From Verrucomicrobiota bacterium (GTDB taxonomy: Bacteria > Verrucomicrobiota > Verrucomicrobiia > JADLBR01), in the NCBI GenBank assembly GCA_029560585.1, contig JAKQKQ010000311.1, forward strand, positions 1-62,765: a stretch of DNA of 62,765 bases, in the 5' to 3' direction. The position numbers and the translations under genes were made by a program. Below are positions 35,323 to 60,985 of this stretch, one piece after another. Within the stretch, counting starts at the first letter, position 1. The number at the start of each line of letters is the position of its first letter. The notes below the pieces were generated by a model. That model saw only the letters and a program-made list of their open reading frames with translations. It was not told the origin of the DNA and made no database searches.

Positions 35323-37689
35323 TCATCGCCATTCGTGGCCGCAGGTCTGCCAGAGCAAATCCATCGTCCGCTGCCGCACCTCGCGGGCGCAGTCGAACTC
35401 GGCGTCATCCCTCGCCCCCATCATGGCGAGGCCGGCCGTCTGCCGCAGTTCCTTGACGATCTGGCGCATGCAACCCAGGACGCTGTCCTGCGCCCCCCCG
35501 ATGGCCCGCGTCTGCTTGCCCAGATCCTTCGCGATTGAGAACTTATCGGGCGCGTCGGACCCATCTCCCTTCGCATCCGCGTCGATCAGCGCCTCGACCT
35601 TGTCGACCAGATCCAGGCAATCGGCCGGGGTCTTCATGTTGGCACCCCGGCCCTTGGAATAGGTGTCCTCGATCCGCGCCATGAACTGATCGAGGCGATC
35701 GACGAGGGGCGCGAGGCCCGGTTTGGCCGCCTTTTGCCCAAGCAACCATTCATGCTCTCGTCGCATCCAGCTCATGTATTCCTCGATCCGCTCGCGTTTC
35801 GTCAGCACGAAGTAATCCATCCGGCGCAATTCCTCAATCAGCCTGCGGCGCTCCTTCGCCTCCTCGCCCTGCTCAAACGCCTTCTCGTACTGGGCGGTCA
35901 CGGCGCACGTCGCCGGATACCGGTGCCTCGGCATGTCCACAGGCTCCAACTGCGAGTGGTATTGAAACTCGGGCGTCTTCTCCAGCGCCTGGCGCAGGAT
36001 GTCTCTAGCCAGCGGGAAATCGCGCGGTGTCGCGGCCGCGCTCTCCCACGGGTAGATCAGCGCCACGTCGTCGGGATCGAGAGTCAGGTCCTCGTCGCCC
36101 CGGAAGAACGTCTGGCGCATGGCGCCCTCGAACTTGGCGTTCACCAGATGCATGAAGCCATCCTGGAGGAAGGCGGGGTACGAGACGTCGCCACGGCAAC
36201 TCGTCCACATCGTGCGCGAGCCGTTCTCGCGGCAGTGCTCCCAGTTGCCGTCCTTGTGACGGAATGTCGGTTCCCAGGAATCGATCAGGCCATCCTGCTG
36301 GCGGCGAAAATCCACCCTCCAGCCCGCCTCGAACGGCATCGTCCACGCGAGCCTATTGCCCTGGATATCGGTCAGTTCGCGGATCGGTTTCTGGTGCCAG
36401 ATCGCGGGTGCCGCCAGCGCGCCGATCCACACGCTCGCCCGCTGGTCGCGGCGGTAGTCGATATCGGTTCGGGAGATCACCCGAGCACCGCCCTCGCCCC
36501 CGAGGTTTATGCCCACCCTCTGGTCGCCGGTGAGCCAGACGAACGCCAGAATGGCATCACCGCCTTCGACGAACTGGAGGAGCATCCTCTCGCTCGGAAC
36601 GCGCAGTTGCGCGGCGGGGGCCCTCTCGGCATTCACGACGATGTCGCCGCCAAACCAGTCCGGCACCACGGCGAACTTCGACGCGCTGGTTGCCAAGGCA
36701 CGCTCCACGCCCTCGCGCGCCTCGGTCTCTATGTAGCGGCAGTCCTGCTGAATTCGGTACCGCACCGTTAACGTCTTCCCGCCCTCCGTCCCGAAGACGA
36801 CGTCGAGGGCGATCTCGTCGGGGTAGTTCCCGGCGATCTTGAAGGACTGGATAGCCTTTGCACGCTTGCCGCCCATGCCGACGGGCGTGATGTCGGAGAG
36901 TTTCTTCCAGACATCCCCGGGCATGCGCGCGTGATACTCGGCCGAGGGCTCCCCTTTTCGGAAGGCGATGCCAACGTACTGGTTCCCAAGCCACGCGTCC
37001 CCGCCAAACGCCGCGCCGCGGCCTAGGATGATCCTCCACCCCTCGCGTTTCTCGAGTTCCTCCGGTGCAATGCCCTTTGCGTGCGCGCGCCCCGTATCGG
37101 CGATCACCAGGCGTGGCTCCGTGGGCACCAGCTCGATGTCATCCAACCAGAGCCGCCCGCGCTTCCGGAGGCCGATCTGGAGGGATGCGGGAAATCCCGC
37201 CGTGGCGGTCACGAACATCTCGCATCGCTGCCAGGTGTCTTTGCGCAGGCTGAACTCCTGCCCGGTCATTCCGCCCACCTGGAGGTCGTCGGGCGCCTTT
37301 CCGCCCCCCCACGATCGCGTGTCATAGATCTGCATGGTGAAGGAGATATCCGCGTCACTCCGCGCCCAGGCGCGGTACAGGTATGCCCCGGGCGGCACCG
37401 TCACCCTGTGTGACGGATGTATGTAGCCTTTGTCGTTCGCGTGATCGATCCGCAGGCTGGAGCGACCGCCATGGAACACGGCTTCGTCTCGAGTGACCGT
37501 TCCCTCCGCCCCGCCCTCGCTCTGCTTGTCCCATTGCGCGGGATCACCGCCAACGCCAACTTCCTCGAAACTGGCGTTGAGCACGAGGTTGGTCGGGATG
37601 TCGCCTTGCTCTGCCCAGATCGCGCCGGCGGCAAAACACAGCCCCAGACCCAGTAGACACGGGCGACCCATGAATCTGACTCTTCTCAT
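35323..37689 (-). CDS. Large secreted protein with N-terminal carbohydrate-binding-like domain
   Basis: 788 residues; signal peptide ends near GAIWAEQ. Residues about 35-190 read as a CBM4/9-like jelly roll (NLVLNASFEEVG, SSLRIDHANDKGY, WLDDIELVP). The middle is beta-rich and may be another sugar-binding or catalytic domain; the last 250 residues are helical with possible coiled coil (EKAFEQGEEAKERRRLIEEL). No named family recognised. The start is supported by a strong SD (37693-37698). In the ancestor it directly followed the SGNH hydrolase gene (see the 116-bp element), so it may act with polysaccharide O-acetylation. Confidence 0.72.
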   Translation of the reverse strand: MRRVRFMGRPCLLGLGLCFAAGAIWAEQGDIPTNLVLNASFEEVGVGGDPAQWDKQSEGGAEGTVTRDEAVFHGGRSSLRIDHANDKGYIHPSHRVTVPPGAYLYRAWARSDADISFTMQIYDTRSWGGGKAPDDLQVGGMTGQEFSLRKDTWQRCEMFVTATAGFPASLQIGLRKRGRLWLDDIELVPTEPRLVIADTGRAHAKGIAPEELEKREGWRIILGRGAAFGGDAWLGNQYVGIAFRKGEPSAEYHARMPGDVWKKLSDITPVGMGGKRAKAIQSFKIAGNYPDEIALDVVFGTEGGKTLTVRYRIQQDCRYIETEAREGVERALATSASKFAVVPDWFGGDIVVNAERAPAAQLRVPSERMLLQFVEGGDAILAFVWLTGDQRVGINLGGEGGARVISRTDIDYRRDQRASVWIGALAAPAIWHQKPIRELTDIQGNRLAWTMPFEAGWRVDFRRQQDGLIDSWEPTFRHKDGNWEHCRENGSRTMWTSCRGDVSYPAFLQDGFMHLVNAKFEGAMRQTFFRGDEDLTLDPDDVALIYPWESAAATPRDFPLARDILRQALEKTPEFQYHSQLEPVDMPRHRYPATCAVTAQYEKAFEQGEEAKERRRLIEELRRMDYFVLTKRERIEEYMSWMRREHEWLLGQKAAKPGLAPLVDRLDQFMARIEDTYSKGRGANMKTPADCLDLVDKVEALIDADAKGDGSDAPDKFSIAKDLGKQTRAIGGAQDSVLGCMRQIVKELRQTAGLAMMGARDDAEFDCAREVRQRTMDLLWQTCGHEWR

Positions 37690-37692
37690 AAG

Positions 37693-37698
37693 CTCCTT
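37693..37698 (-). promoter_or_regulatory. Strong Shine-Dalgarno (AAGGAG)
   Basis: On the minus strand GTAAGGAGCTT precedes the ATG at 37689; AAGGAG is 3 nt before it at its end. This is the best SD in the window. The TAA within it is the stop codon the SGNH gene would have had before the adjacent element inserted. Confidence 0.75.
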
Positions 37699-37717
37699 AC
37701 TTCATACTACGTGACGC

Positions 37718-37833
37718 GAATGGCCCTAAGTTAAGGGATATCGGGCATCGTGGCATGGGCATCCTGCCCATGGCCAGCCCCACGGCCAGGATGGCCGTGC
37801 CACTGTCGCGACAAACTTAACTTAGCGCCATTC
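37718..37833. mobile_element. 116-bp MITE-like element, family C copy 1
   Basis: The ends are inverted repeats: GAATGGCCCTAAGTTAAG at the left, and the reverse complement of the right end is GAATGGCGCTAAGTTAAG (17/18). It is flanked by 11-bp near-identical direct repeats, CTACGTGACGC (37707-37717) and CTACCTGACGC (37834-37844), as expected for a target-site duplication. A second 116-bp copy at 60870 differs at six positions, all in the left third. Inside are two palindromes, around CATGGGCATCCTGCCCATG and CACGGCCAGGATGGCCGTG. Too short to encode a transposase, so non-autonomous. Duplications of about 11 bp suggest an IS4-type helper, an inference only. Confidence 0.9.
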
Positions 37834-39008
37834 CTACCTGACGCCCGTCGTCCATCCCCAGCCAGCCACGCGCGAAAAACGTCATCGTCCCACAAGGCCC
37901 GGGCGAGGTGCGCGTAGCCCGGCGCCAGCGGGTGGCTCGCGTCAGCATACTCCTCGCTCGGCAGGGGCATCCCGCAGAAAACGTCGACACCCGCGAGCCT
38001 CAACTCCTCGGCCATGGCGCCCACCATCGTCTCGTGGCTGGCTCGGCTCTCCGGGTTCAGGAGATGCGGGTTGAAAGGACTCACCCAGACGAAAACCCGA
38101 TTCCCTCGAGACTGCAGAAGGCCGATGACATCGCGAAAGAATCGCCACTGGAGGGATTCCCTGGCTGCGGGCCATGGAATGCCGCCCACCGGGATGCCGC
38201 GCTCCTCCCACGTGAGTGGCTGGCCGTGCGGCCCCGGGGTCGGCTGGGGAACCTGCGCACTGAATCCGGCAAATGGCCGCGGCAAGGGATCGTCGATCCG
38301 GGGTTCCGACCCCGCATCCCCCGATTCCGCATCGCGGCCGGTCTCCGCGCCCCCGCCTTCCAGGCGCGCGCCCTTGGACTTCTGGTGCTCCATCCATCGG
38401 AAGAACGGGATGGCCCGCTCCACCACGATGCCCGCGCGCTCCTCGAATGAAGCCGAGTAGCTGGGCACCGATGGCCAGAACTGCGGAACCAGCGCCGGAT
38501 GATTCAGGGTGGCCCTCCCCGACTCGCCGTCCGCAGGCACCTCGCGGAGATCGTGCCGCGCCGAGCTCATCCACAGCGTGTTTAGCACGACCACGACATC
38601 CCTGCCGCGGACAACCCCGCCATGATACCGGAGCATGCCGAGCATCGCGGCGGGGTGCAGGCCATTGACCCCCAGATTCGCGAACCGTTCCTCCCCGGCA
38701 CGCCGATTCAGTTGCGCCGTCAGCGTGTCGCCCAGCCCAACATACTCGCCCCACACCACGGAATCGCCGATCACGAGGACCCGCCCGGCGCGCGCAGCCT
38801 CACGAAACCACCGGGCGCAATGCCAGTAATCCTGGCTGAATTCATAGGGCAACCGATAGTCCCCGCACGGGCGAAACGGCTCGAACCAGACCCAGGCCGC
38901 CGGAATCCCGAATGCCAGCGCCAAGAGCACCCCAGCCAGCGCCAGCCACTGCCTCCCCGAGAGCCTCAGTGCGTTGGAGGAGTAGACAAACTGGCGCGCG
39001 TATTCCAT
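37731..39008 (-). CDS. Membrane-anchored SGNH hydrolase-like protein (polysaccharide O-acetylation partner)
   Basis: 425 residues. One membrane segment (about 22-42), then an SGNH-type domain with the nucleophile motif VLVIGDSVVWGEY and the late DASHPLAPGY (Asp-x-x-His). It follows the MBOAT gene with a 13-nt gap; the pair resembles AlgI with AlgJ/AlgX, where MBOAT moves acetyl groups across the membrane and the SGNH partner puts them on polysaccharide. The last 30 or so residues (NGAKLSLSRQWHGHPGRG...) are encoded by the 116-bp element and are foreign; the native end would have been ...GRRASRSMK. The tail should not affect the catalytic core but could affect folding. Confidence 0.85.
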   Translation of the reverse strand: MEYARQFVYSSNALRLSGRQWLALAGVLLALAFGIPAAWVWFEPFRPCGDYRLPYEFSQDYWHCARWFREAARAGRVLVIGDSVVWGEYVGLGDTLTAQLNRRAGEERFANLGVNGLHPAAMLGMLRYHGGVVRGRDVVVVLNTLWMSSARHDLREVPADGESGRATLNHPALVPQFWPSVPSYSASFEERAGIVVERAIPFFRWMEHQKSKGARLEGGGAETGRDAESGDAGSEPRIDDPLPRPFAGFSAQVPQPTPGPHGQPLTWEERGIPVGGIPWPAARESLQWRFFRDVIGLLQSRGNRVFVWVSPFNPHLLNPESRASHETMVGAMAEELRLAGVDVFCGMPLPSEEYADASHPLAPGYAHLARALWDDDVFRAWLAGDGRRASGRNGAKLSLSRQWHGHPGRGAGHGQDAHATMPDIP

Positions 39009-39021
39009 GTGACTCCACCGA

Positions 39022-40422
39022 CTAGAATTGAAAATAGATGAAAGCCTGGGAACGGGACGAAGTGAATACGGCGAGATAGATGATCATGCCCAGCGCCGTC
39101 AACAGCCGCACCACTCCCGATTCCAGAAGCGGCCGCAGCCTCGACTCGAAGGCGAACTCATATCCCCAAAGTCCGAGACACAGCGCGTATCCCATCAGAG
39201 GAAATTGCGGATCCGTCAGCGGCGTGGTGACCATCCGGGCGAGGACGGTCAGGGCGTCATGAAGGCTCGTCGCCCGAAAGAAAACCCATGTCACACACAC
39301 GAAAGCGAACACCAGCATCTGTCTCGCGAATCGCGGAACCCGTTCCTTGTAGACACTTGACTCCTCCAACCTCCGGGTCAGCAGTCGCCCCACCCCATGG
39401 AGCAGCCCCCAGAAGATGAACGTCCACGCCGCGCCGTGCCAGACCGCGGAGATCATCATCGTCACGAACATATTTGCGTAGGTCCTCCACGGCCCACCGC
39501 GATTGCCCCCCAGTGGGATGTAGACGTAGTCCCGAAACCATGTCGAAAGGCTGATGTGCCAGCGCTGCCAGAACTCCCCGAGCCCGGACGCGAGATAGGG
39601 GTTGTTGAAGTTCAGCATCAGGTTGAAACCCATCGCCCGCGCTATGCCGCGGGCCATGTCCGTGTACCCGCTGAAGTCGCAGTAGATCTGCCAGGCGAAA
39701 GCGAAGGTCGCCATGGCGAGCGCTGCCCCGTTGTAGAGTTGCGGCACGGCATACACCTGGTCCACATAGGACGCGAGATAATCGGCGATCGCCACCTTCT
39801 TGAAAAATCCGACAAGGAACAGGGACATGCCATCCGCGATGTGCCGCCCCGTGATCTCGCGCCTCCCGTAGAGCTGCCCGAGAAGATTCTTGGCGCGCTC
39901 GATGGGACCCGCCACGAGCTGCGGGAAAAAAGAGACGAAGGTCGTGTAGCGGATGAAACTGGGCTCGCAGGGAACATTGCCCCGGTAAAAATCGATCGTG
40001 TAGCTCAATGACTGAAACACGAAGAACGAGATCCCCACCGGCAGGACAAACTGCCAGCCTTCAGGCAATATCTCCTGCGGAAGCGGCAGACCTCCGGTGA
40101 CCCCCGCCAGCGCCAGCGCGCGATTCACGTTCTTCACCAAAAACGTGGAGTACTTGAAGAACCCCAGCAGCCCGAGATTGGCGACGAGGCTGATCACCAG
40201 CCAGAGCCTGCGCCGACCCCCGGCGGCCATCCGGCGCACGCAGAAAAAATCAATCAGCGTGGAATAGACGATCAGCGCCAGATAGGACCAGTTCCACCAC
40301 CCATAGAAGACGTAGGATGCGGCCCACAGCCAGTAGACGCAGAACCTCGTCCCCCGCGTCGGCAGATAGACCGCGTAGACGATCAGGAAGAAGGCGGCGA
40401 ATGTCCAGGTGTGGAAAAGCAT
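39022..40422 (-). CDS. MBOAT-family O-acyltransferase (AlgI-like)
   Basis: 466 residues, polytopic with about 10-12 membrane segments. Diagnostic motifs: FFPQLVAGPIERAKNLL, YCDFSGYTDMARGIARAMG, FWQRWHISLSTWFRDYVYIP and the catalytic His in SAVWHGAAWTFIFWG. Members acetylate alginate, teichoic acids, cellulose or other surface glycans using a cytoplasmic acetyl donor. First gene of a likely operon with the SGNH partner. Located amid sulfatase, lyase and fucose genes, so it might modify a surface polysaccharide made by this cell rather than help degrade one. Confidence 0.93.
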   Translation of the reverse strand: MLFHTWTFAAFFLIVYAVYLPTRGTRFCVYWLWAASYVFYGWWNWSYLALIVYSTLIDFFCVRRMAAGGRRRLWLVISLVANLGLLGFFKYSTFLVKNVNRALALAGVTGGLPLPQEILPEGWQFVLPVGISFFVFQSLSYTIDFYRGNVPCEPSFIRYTTFVSFFPQLVAGPIERAKNLLGQLYGRREITGRHIADGMSLFLVGFFKKVAIADYLASYVDQVYAVPQLYNGAALAMATFAFAWQIYCDFSGYTDMARGIARAMGFNLMLNFNNPYLASGLGEFWQRWHISLSTWFRDYVYIPLGGNRGGPWRTYANMFVTMMISAVWHGAAWTFIFWGLLHGVGRLLTRRLEESSVYKERVPRFARQMLVFAFVCVTWVFFRATSLHDALTVLARMVTTPLTDPQFPLMGYALCLGLWGYEFAFESRLRPLLESGVVRLLTALGMIIYLAVFTSSRSQAFIYFQF

Positions 40423-54569: not shown

Positions 54570-54667
54570 GCCAGAAAATGGGACGTAGGAGCGCGCTTGC
54601 GCGCGATTCGCGGATGGGATCGCCTGCAAGCAGGCTCCTACGATTCGGTGTCTGAATTTTCGAGTCA
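54570..54667 (-). repeat. REPIN-like double-hairpin repeat, family A copy 5 (inverted)
   Basis: Reads CCAGAAAATGGGACGTAGGA, then GCGCGC-TT-GCGCGC and GCCTGC-AA-GCAGGC hairpins, ending TGAATTTTCGAGTCAG: the reverse complement of the other copies. It lies in the 280-bp gap between two minus-strand genes. Confidence 0.88.
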
Positions 54668-54733
54668 GCCGATCCGGCCCGCGAGGCCGCGGGCCCTCCC
54701 GAATCATGTGCCAGGACCAAACGAGTCATTGTA

Positions 54734-60869: not shown

Positions 60870-60985
60870 GAATGGCGCCAAGTTAAGGGACATTTGGGAT
60901 CGTGGCATGGGCATCCTGCCCATGGCCAGCCCCACGGCCAGGATGGCCGTGCCACTGTCGCGACAAACTTAACTTAGCGCCATTC
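60870..60985. mobile_element. 116-bp MITE-like element, family C copy 2
   Basis: Left end GAATGGCGCCAAGTTAAG; reverse complement of the right end GAATGGCGCTAAGTTAAG (17/18). It is flanked by a perfect 11-bp direct repeat, TGAGCAGGCCC, at 60859-60869 and 60986-60996. Same length and orientation as the copy at 37718; the last 80 or so bases are identical. It sits in the 347-bp gap between the divergent sulfatase (60689) and hydrolase (61037) genes, whose promoters it may move or disturb. The remaining gap has no clear features. Confidence 0.93.

Follow-up and report, generated by a model that had tools for sequence, protein, structure and literature searches.

The last codons of an SGNH-type protein gene in a 62,765-nt stretch of DNA from a Verrucomicrobiota bacterium (contig JAKQKQ010000311.1, hereafter the window) were almost certainly rewritten by a non-autonomous MITE with ends of the IS4 subgroup, which landed there, presumably after mobilisation in trans, and left the protein with a tail of 34 residues. 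The element comprises 116 bp at positions 37718-37833, a length within the approximately 70-300 bp of MITEs, and codes for no transposase. Its terminal inverted repeats are 18 bp long and have the sequence GAATGGC(C/G)CTAAGTTAAG, with one mismatch between the two ends; the left repeat, GAATGGCCCTAAGTTAAG, lies at 37718-37735 on the plus strand, and the right repeat, GAATGGCGCTAAGTTAAG, lies at 37816-37833 and is read on the minus strand. The element is flanked by 11-bp target site duplications, CTACGTGACGC at 37707-37717 and CTACCTGACGC at 37834-37844, which differ at one position, and the chance that a given pair of 11-mers matches with at most one mismatch is approximately 34/4^11 = 8e-6. 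The assignment as a MITE draws on copy number in the genome, a scan for the terminal inverted repeat and the target site duplications. Folded as a single strand, the element is more stable than its shuffled counterparts (z -6.0, DNA parameters). Relative to the family consensus, the window copy has 5 substitutions in its 116 positions. All five private substitutions (37725-37752) fall in element positions 8-35, with two of them adjacent, and the 81 bases that follow carry none; this clustering possibly reflects a subfamily variant or gene conversion.

The SGNH-type gene lies on the minus strand at 37731-39008 and encodes a protein of 425 residues with a DltD-like fold. Residues G81, D82, S83, D356 and H359 are invariant across 40 sequences, forming the GDS and DxxH blocks of an SGNH protein, and the structure model matches DltD and GDSL hydrolases, although the Pfam matches are weak and few. 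Removal of the element and one repeat yields an older gene end, ...DDDVFRAWLAGDGRRAS(R/G)SMK*, that is, DGRRAS followed by R or G, depending on the repeat that is kept, and then SMK and the stop. This old end, (AG)T ATG AAG TAA followed by GGAGCTT (37690-37706, minus strand), now stands outside the SGNH frame. Behind the restored stop, the sequence TAAGGAGCTTATGAGAAGA (TAA GGAGCTT ATG AGA AGA) leads into the start of the next gene, which encodes 788 residues, with a spacing of 7 nt between stop and start. The reconstructed ancestral protein has 394 residues, compared with 425 today, in that 34 tail residues replace three (S-M-K). The tail, RNGAKLSLSRQWHGHPGRGAGHGQDAHATMPDIP, together with a TAA stop located in the far inverted repeat, is encoded at 37731-37836 on the minus strand.

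The position of the reconstructed end agrees with the homologues: of the 80 with a readable end, 73 terminate within residues 380-396 of the query, and the median C-terminus is at residue 385. Two of the three frames that enter this end of the element meet a stop at once in the inverted repeat, which leaves a single open frame; because the SGNH frame happened to meet that one, translation would run through the element and end at the TAA of the far inverted repeat. The original prediction had placed a 116-bp element between near-identical 11-mers, which proved right to the base, and had proposed that excision would bring stop, Shine-Dalgarno sequence and start within 7 nt, which the joined flanks confirm; its estimate of about 30 foreign residues was close to the count of 34.

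The catalytic residues D356 and H359 and every conserved column precede the tail, and the predicted structure has pLDDT values mostly above 90 in the core and mostly below 50 in the tail, which is thus predicted to be disordered. Since the conserved columns precede the insertion and the pLDDT of the tail is low, the tail is most likely a tolerated, disordered appendage, and the catalytic domain would have been left untouched when the three native codons were replaced. Selection could instead have retained the tail, for instance if it served as a tag for localisation or interaction, as might be argued from a frame that has stayed open despite 5 differences from the consensus in 116 positions and 1 in 11 in the duplication. 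Such co-option is very unlikely, given that 34 open codons with approximately four changes are no test of selection, that the tail is predicted to be disordered and that the homologues manage without it.

The genome holds approximately 21 copies of the element with coinciding ends, which are 82-95% identical to the window copy over the aligned lengths, and an independent genome scan with the terminal repeat agreed on the copies. Direct repeats are present at all 16 copies that were analysed end to end, with a length of 11 bp at 15 of them and 12 bp at one; thirteen of these duplications have at most one mismatch (seven none, six one), and of the other three, two differ at two positions and one at three. 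Their sequences favour a palindrome close to GGGTCWGACCC: position 5 is C in 27 of 32 target arms, and position 7 is G in 29 of 32. The right duplication at the window locus has C at position 5 and fits this consensus better than the left one, which is why the left duplication is probably the mutated copy and the right one the unmutated copy. This preference recalls the GGGN5CCC target of IS231A, but the ends of the present element do not begin with 5'-CAT.

A second copy in the window (60870-60985) has a perfect 11-bp duplication, TGAGCAGGCCC, and lies between two divergent genes, namely a minus-strand sulfatase gene and, on the plus strand, a gene whose product has a Tat-like signal peptide. 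Among the copies examined, those other than the copy in the SGNH gene are mostly intergenic or ambiguous. A further C-terminal rewrite was considered at the copy designated L007, where a SurA-like open reading frame ends six codons into the element, but is not claimed here, as the joined flanks leave the frame open for approximately 40 more codons. Some copies lie near contig ends of the draft assembly, and a repeat copy could in principle have been placed at the SGNH junction in error in a draft of so many contigs. The probability of such an error is very small: the window copy carries private substitutions and its own target duplication, and it is internal to its contig, where the neighbouring genes form a coherent set.

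The manner of insertion can be read at L007, which is inserted within a second repeat family. With the joined flanks of L007 as query, the genome yielded at least 36 more copies of this repeat, which run through the insertion point. At 31 uninterrupted sites of the target repeat that were inspected, a single 11-mer of the AATTCAGACAC type is present, whereas L007 has two, placed around 116 bp. This comparison of filled and empty sites demonstrates that the element family inserts with an 11-bp duplication. The empty sites are thus those of a sister copy; at the window locus itself none was found in relatives, as the genus-mate G001 has no clear SGNH orthologue and the junction of the closest relative locus is too diverged at the base level. 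A high-copy repeat that is a target of the MITE, AATTCAGACACCGAATCGTAGGAGCCTGCTTGCAGGCG..., is present in the window at 54574-54671 on the minus strand, with others at L265-L293 and approximately 40 copies in the genome.

The ends of the element are those of IS4-family insertion sequences, as seen in other members of the phylum. The same terminal repeat was present in 56 of 388 phylum genomes sampled, and a control with the reversed pattern was nearly silent. In two other genomes, facing GAATGGCACTAAGTTAAG ends enclose complete insertion sequences of 1591 and 1558 bp, each with one transposase gene (494 and 482 residues) and with 11-bp duplications; the duplication around the 1591-bp element is perfect and that around the 1558-bp element imperfect. 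Both transposases match NF033592 (NCBIfam, IS4 family) above the cut-off and carry the YREK signature. A DDE transposase with the motif Y(2)R(3)E(6)K is linked to these ends at L125 and L126 and in a congeneric genome (L294); in the latter, a related YREK transposase runs up to an identical terminal inverted repeat, and its upstream part is cut near a contig end. The IS4 subgroup has been described as having ends of the form -AATR--------WTW----, duplications of 10-13 bp and a size of 1400-1650 bp (PMC2266710). The right repeat, GAATGGCGCTAAGTTAAG, fits every specified position of this consensus, and the duplications of 11 bp, once 12 bp, fall within the described range. Because ends, duplication length and linked transposases match, the ends of the element belong with the IS4 family, IS4 subgroup. 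The linked elements of 1558-1591 bp, the single-ORF YREK transposase and the non-random target are likewise shared with that subgroup, whereas the present element differs in having no transposase, with none found in its genome.

Two queries of the organism's own genome, a draft of 336 contigs, returned no cognate transposase. Six DDE_Tnp_1 matches are present in this genome; none has these ends nearby, which rules them out as the autonomous partner, and YREK is found only in L063, a frame of 329 residues. Given this negative result in the draft, the mover was presumably an insertion sequence that acted on the element in trans and has since been lost or is absent from the assembly. The absence of the cognate transposase is a matter of current mobility and is not defining for the origin of the MITE. 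We infer a course of events in which an IS4-subgroup transposase acted in trans on the 18-bp ends, with cut-and-paste insertion at GGGTCWGACCC-like sites and duplication of 11 bp; one copy landed in the last codons of the SGNH (DltD-like) gene.

The interior of the element raises the question of a different mover. The core (37750-37803) is built from one palindromic unit, GTGGCAYGGSCATCCTGSCC, present twice and facing itself in a REPIN-like layout, with matches in a pattern scan of the genome at 37750-37769 (plus strand) and 37784-37803 (minus strand). Paired facing units of this kind are also characteristic of REPINs and GTAG-tagged REPs, and REPs have been reported in Verrucomicrobia (PMC3733652); the present unit differs from REPINs in being bounded by terminal inverted repeats with an 11-bp duplication, and no linkage to a RAYT gene was found. 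The genome also contains six Y1_Tnp (RAYT/IS200-like) genes, L170-L175, so that the element could be read as a pair of REPIN-type palindromes mobilised by a RAYT, a Y1 HUH transposase, rather than as an IS4-type MITE. This reading is extremely improbable, and the duplications together with the ends largely rule it out. The mobile unit is bounded by the 18-bp inverted repeats and not by the palindromes, it is accompanied by target duplications, and the same ends surround other interiors and IS4 transposase genes in other genomes. From the general behaviour of HUH elements, RAYTs are not expected to produce 11-bp duplications. Additionally, the free palindromes of the genome sit in a different compound repeat (CATCTTGCCC versus CATCCTGCCC). 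A compound repeat distinct from the MITE, GCCACGGGCGGGACGCCCGTGCCACAGGACCGTGGCATGGGCATCTTGCCCATGGCC...CCGAAGGGCGCAAGCCCTTCGCTAC, with approximately 20-25 copies (L140-L143, L151, L153 and others), shares the palindromic unit of the MITE core.

The IS4-subgroup ends of the MITE enclose different interiors in other genomes, and these interiors are often strongly self-complementary, which suggests that local palindromes may have been captured repeatedly within these ends. A more speculative proposal, to which we attach low confidence, is that the ends form a portable shell, into which a palindrome abundant in the respective lineage is captured; in the present case, the captured unit would be a double hairpin of the REPIN type through which one frame is open, and the composite would spread by the IS4 transposase and append a fixed peptide to the proteins that it hits. 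At L059:12608-12972, the same IS4-type ends delimit an element of 365 bp in which another inverted-repeat element, GAGGCTGTCTCAAAAC...GTTTTGAGACAGCCTC, is nested; the interior of the 365-bp element is in part similar to the 221-bp elements of G001.

The neighbourhood of the SGNH gene was considered with regard to the effect of the insertion on the downstream gene. The SGNH gene is preceded by a gene for an MBOAT (DltB-like) acyltransferase (39022-40422, minus strand), a homologue of which accompanies the SGNH relative in 75 of 82 loci, and is followed by the gene for the 788-residue protein (35323-37689, minus strand). The closest relative locus is L176, from Lentisphaerae bacterium RIFOXYA12_64_32 (56% identity), which has an ortholog of the 788-residue protein (56%) at the same place and shows the same order of MBOAT, SGNH, 788-residue and FGE genes, without the element and with a gap of approximately 103 nt. 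Because the gap in L176 is this wide, the tight spacing of stop and start is not a conserved feature.

In the window, the SGNH and 788-residue genes are co-directional today, with a gap of 41 nt and an intact GGAG just before the ATG. Their junction yielded no site resembling a terminator or a promoter, which speaks against a splitting of the operon by a terminator or a new promoter. The original prediction had stated that the element rewrote the gene end, displaced the cluster of stop, Shine-Dalgarno sequence and start, and split an operon, with the loss of translational coupling. The rewriting and the displacement hold, as the homologues end at the older position, and neither the splitting of the operon nor the loss of coupling is supported. 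A changed expression of the 788-residue gene, through lost coupling or a hairpin in the mRNA, would be in keeping with the 7-nt arrangement of stop, GGAG and start in the reconstructed ancestor and with the strong hairpin that the inserted sequence can form (DNA parameters). Given the intact Shine-Dalgarno sequence and the 41-nt gap, in which no terminator-like or promoter-like site was detected, as well as the unchanged gene order across a longer gap in L176, such an outcome is rather unlikely, and the loss of coupling as such is possible. We infer that the downstream gene is affected mildly or not at all, that the element was mobilised in trans and that the tail is tolerated.

MITEs, REP-containing MITEs and palindromic elements translated within host genes have already been described, and the kind of event reported here is ordinary. 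The palindromic elements of Rickettsia (Ogata et al., reviewed in PMC10969869) comprise several families in which in-frame insertion is frequent; a small palindromic element translated in frame within a host protein is shared with the present case, and the difference is one of frequency, with one clear case here. Coxiella QMITE2, in the portion of the report that describes it (PMC5896051), shares with the present element a similar size, a REP palindrome inside, long direct repeats (7-11 nt) and a slight overlap with the 3' ends of genes. It differs in that those overlaps amount to 1-10 bp, compared with an extension of 34 residues here, and no IS4 assignment is stated in that portion.

The SGNH gene is a clean natural case in which a miniature transposon came to encode the C-terminal end of a protein that is conserved elsewhere along its length. 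The chain of evidence is unusually complete, as one can read the target site, the ancestral end of the gene and the family of the presumed transposase. At the level of the phylum, one set of IS4-type ends has spread around differing interiors. Automatic gene annotation is also affected, in that tails derived from such elements will be called as protein sequence.
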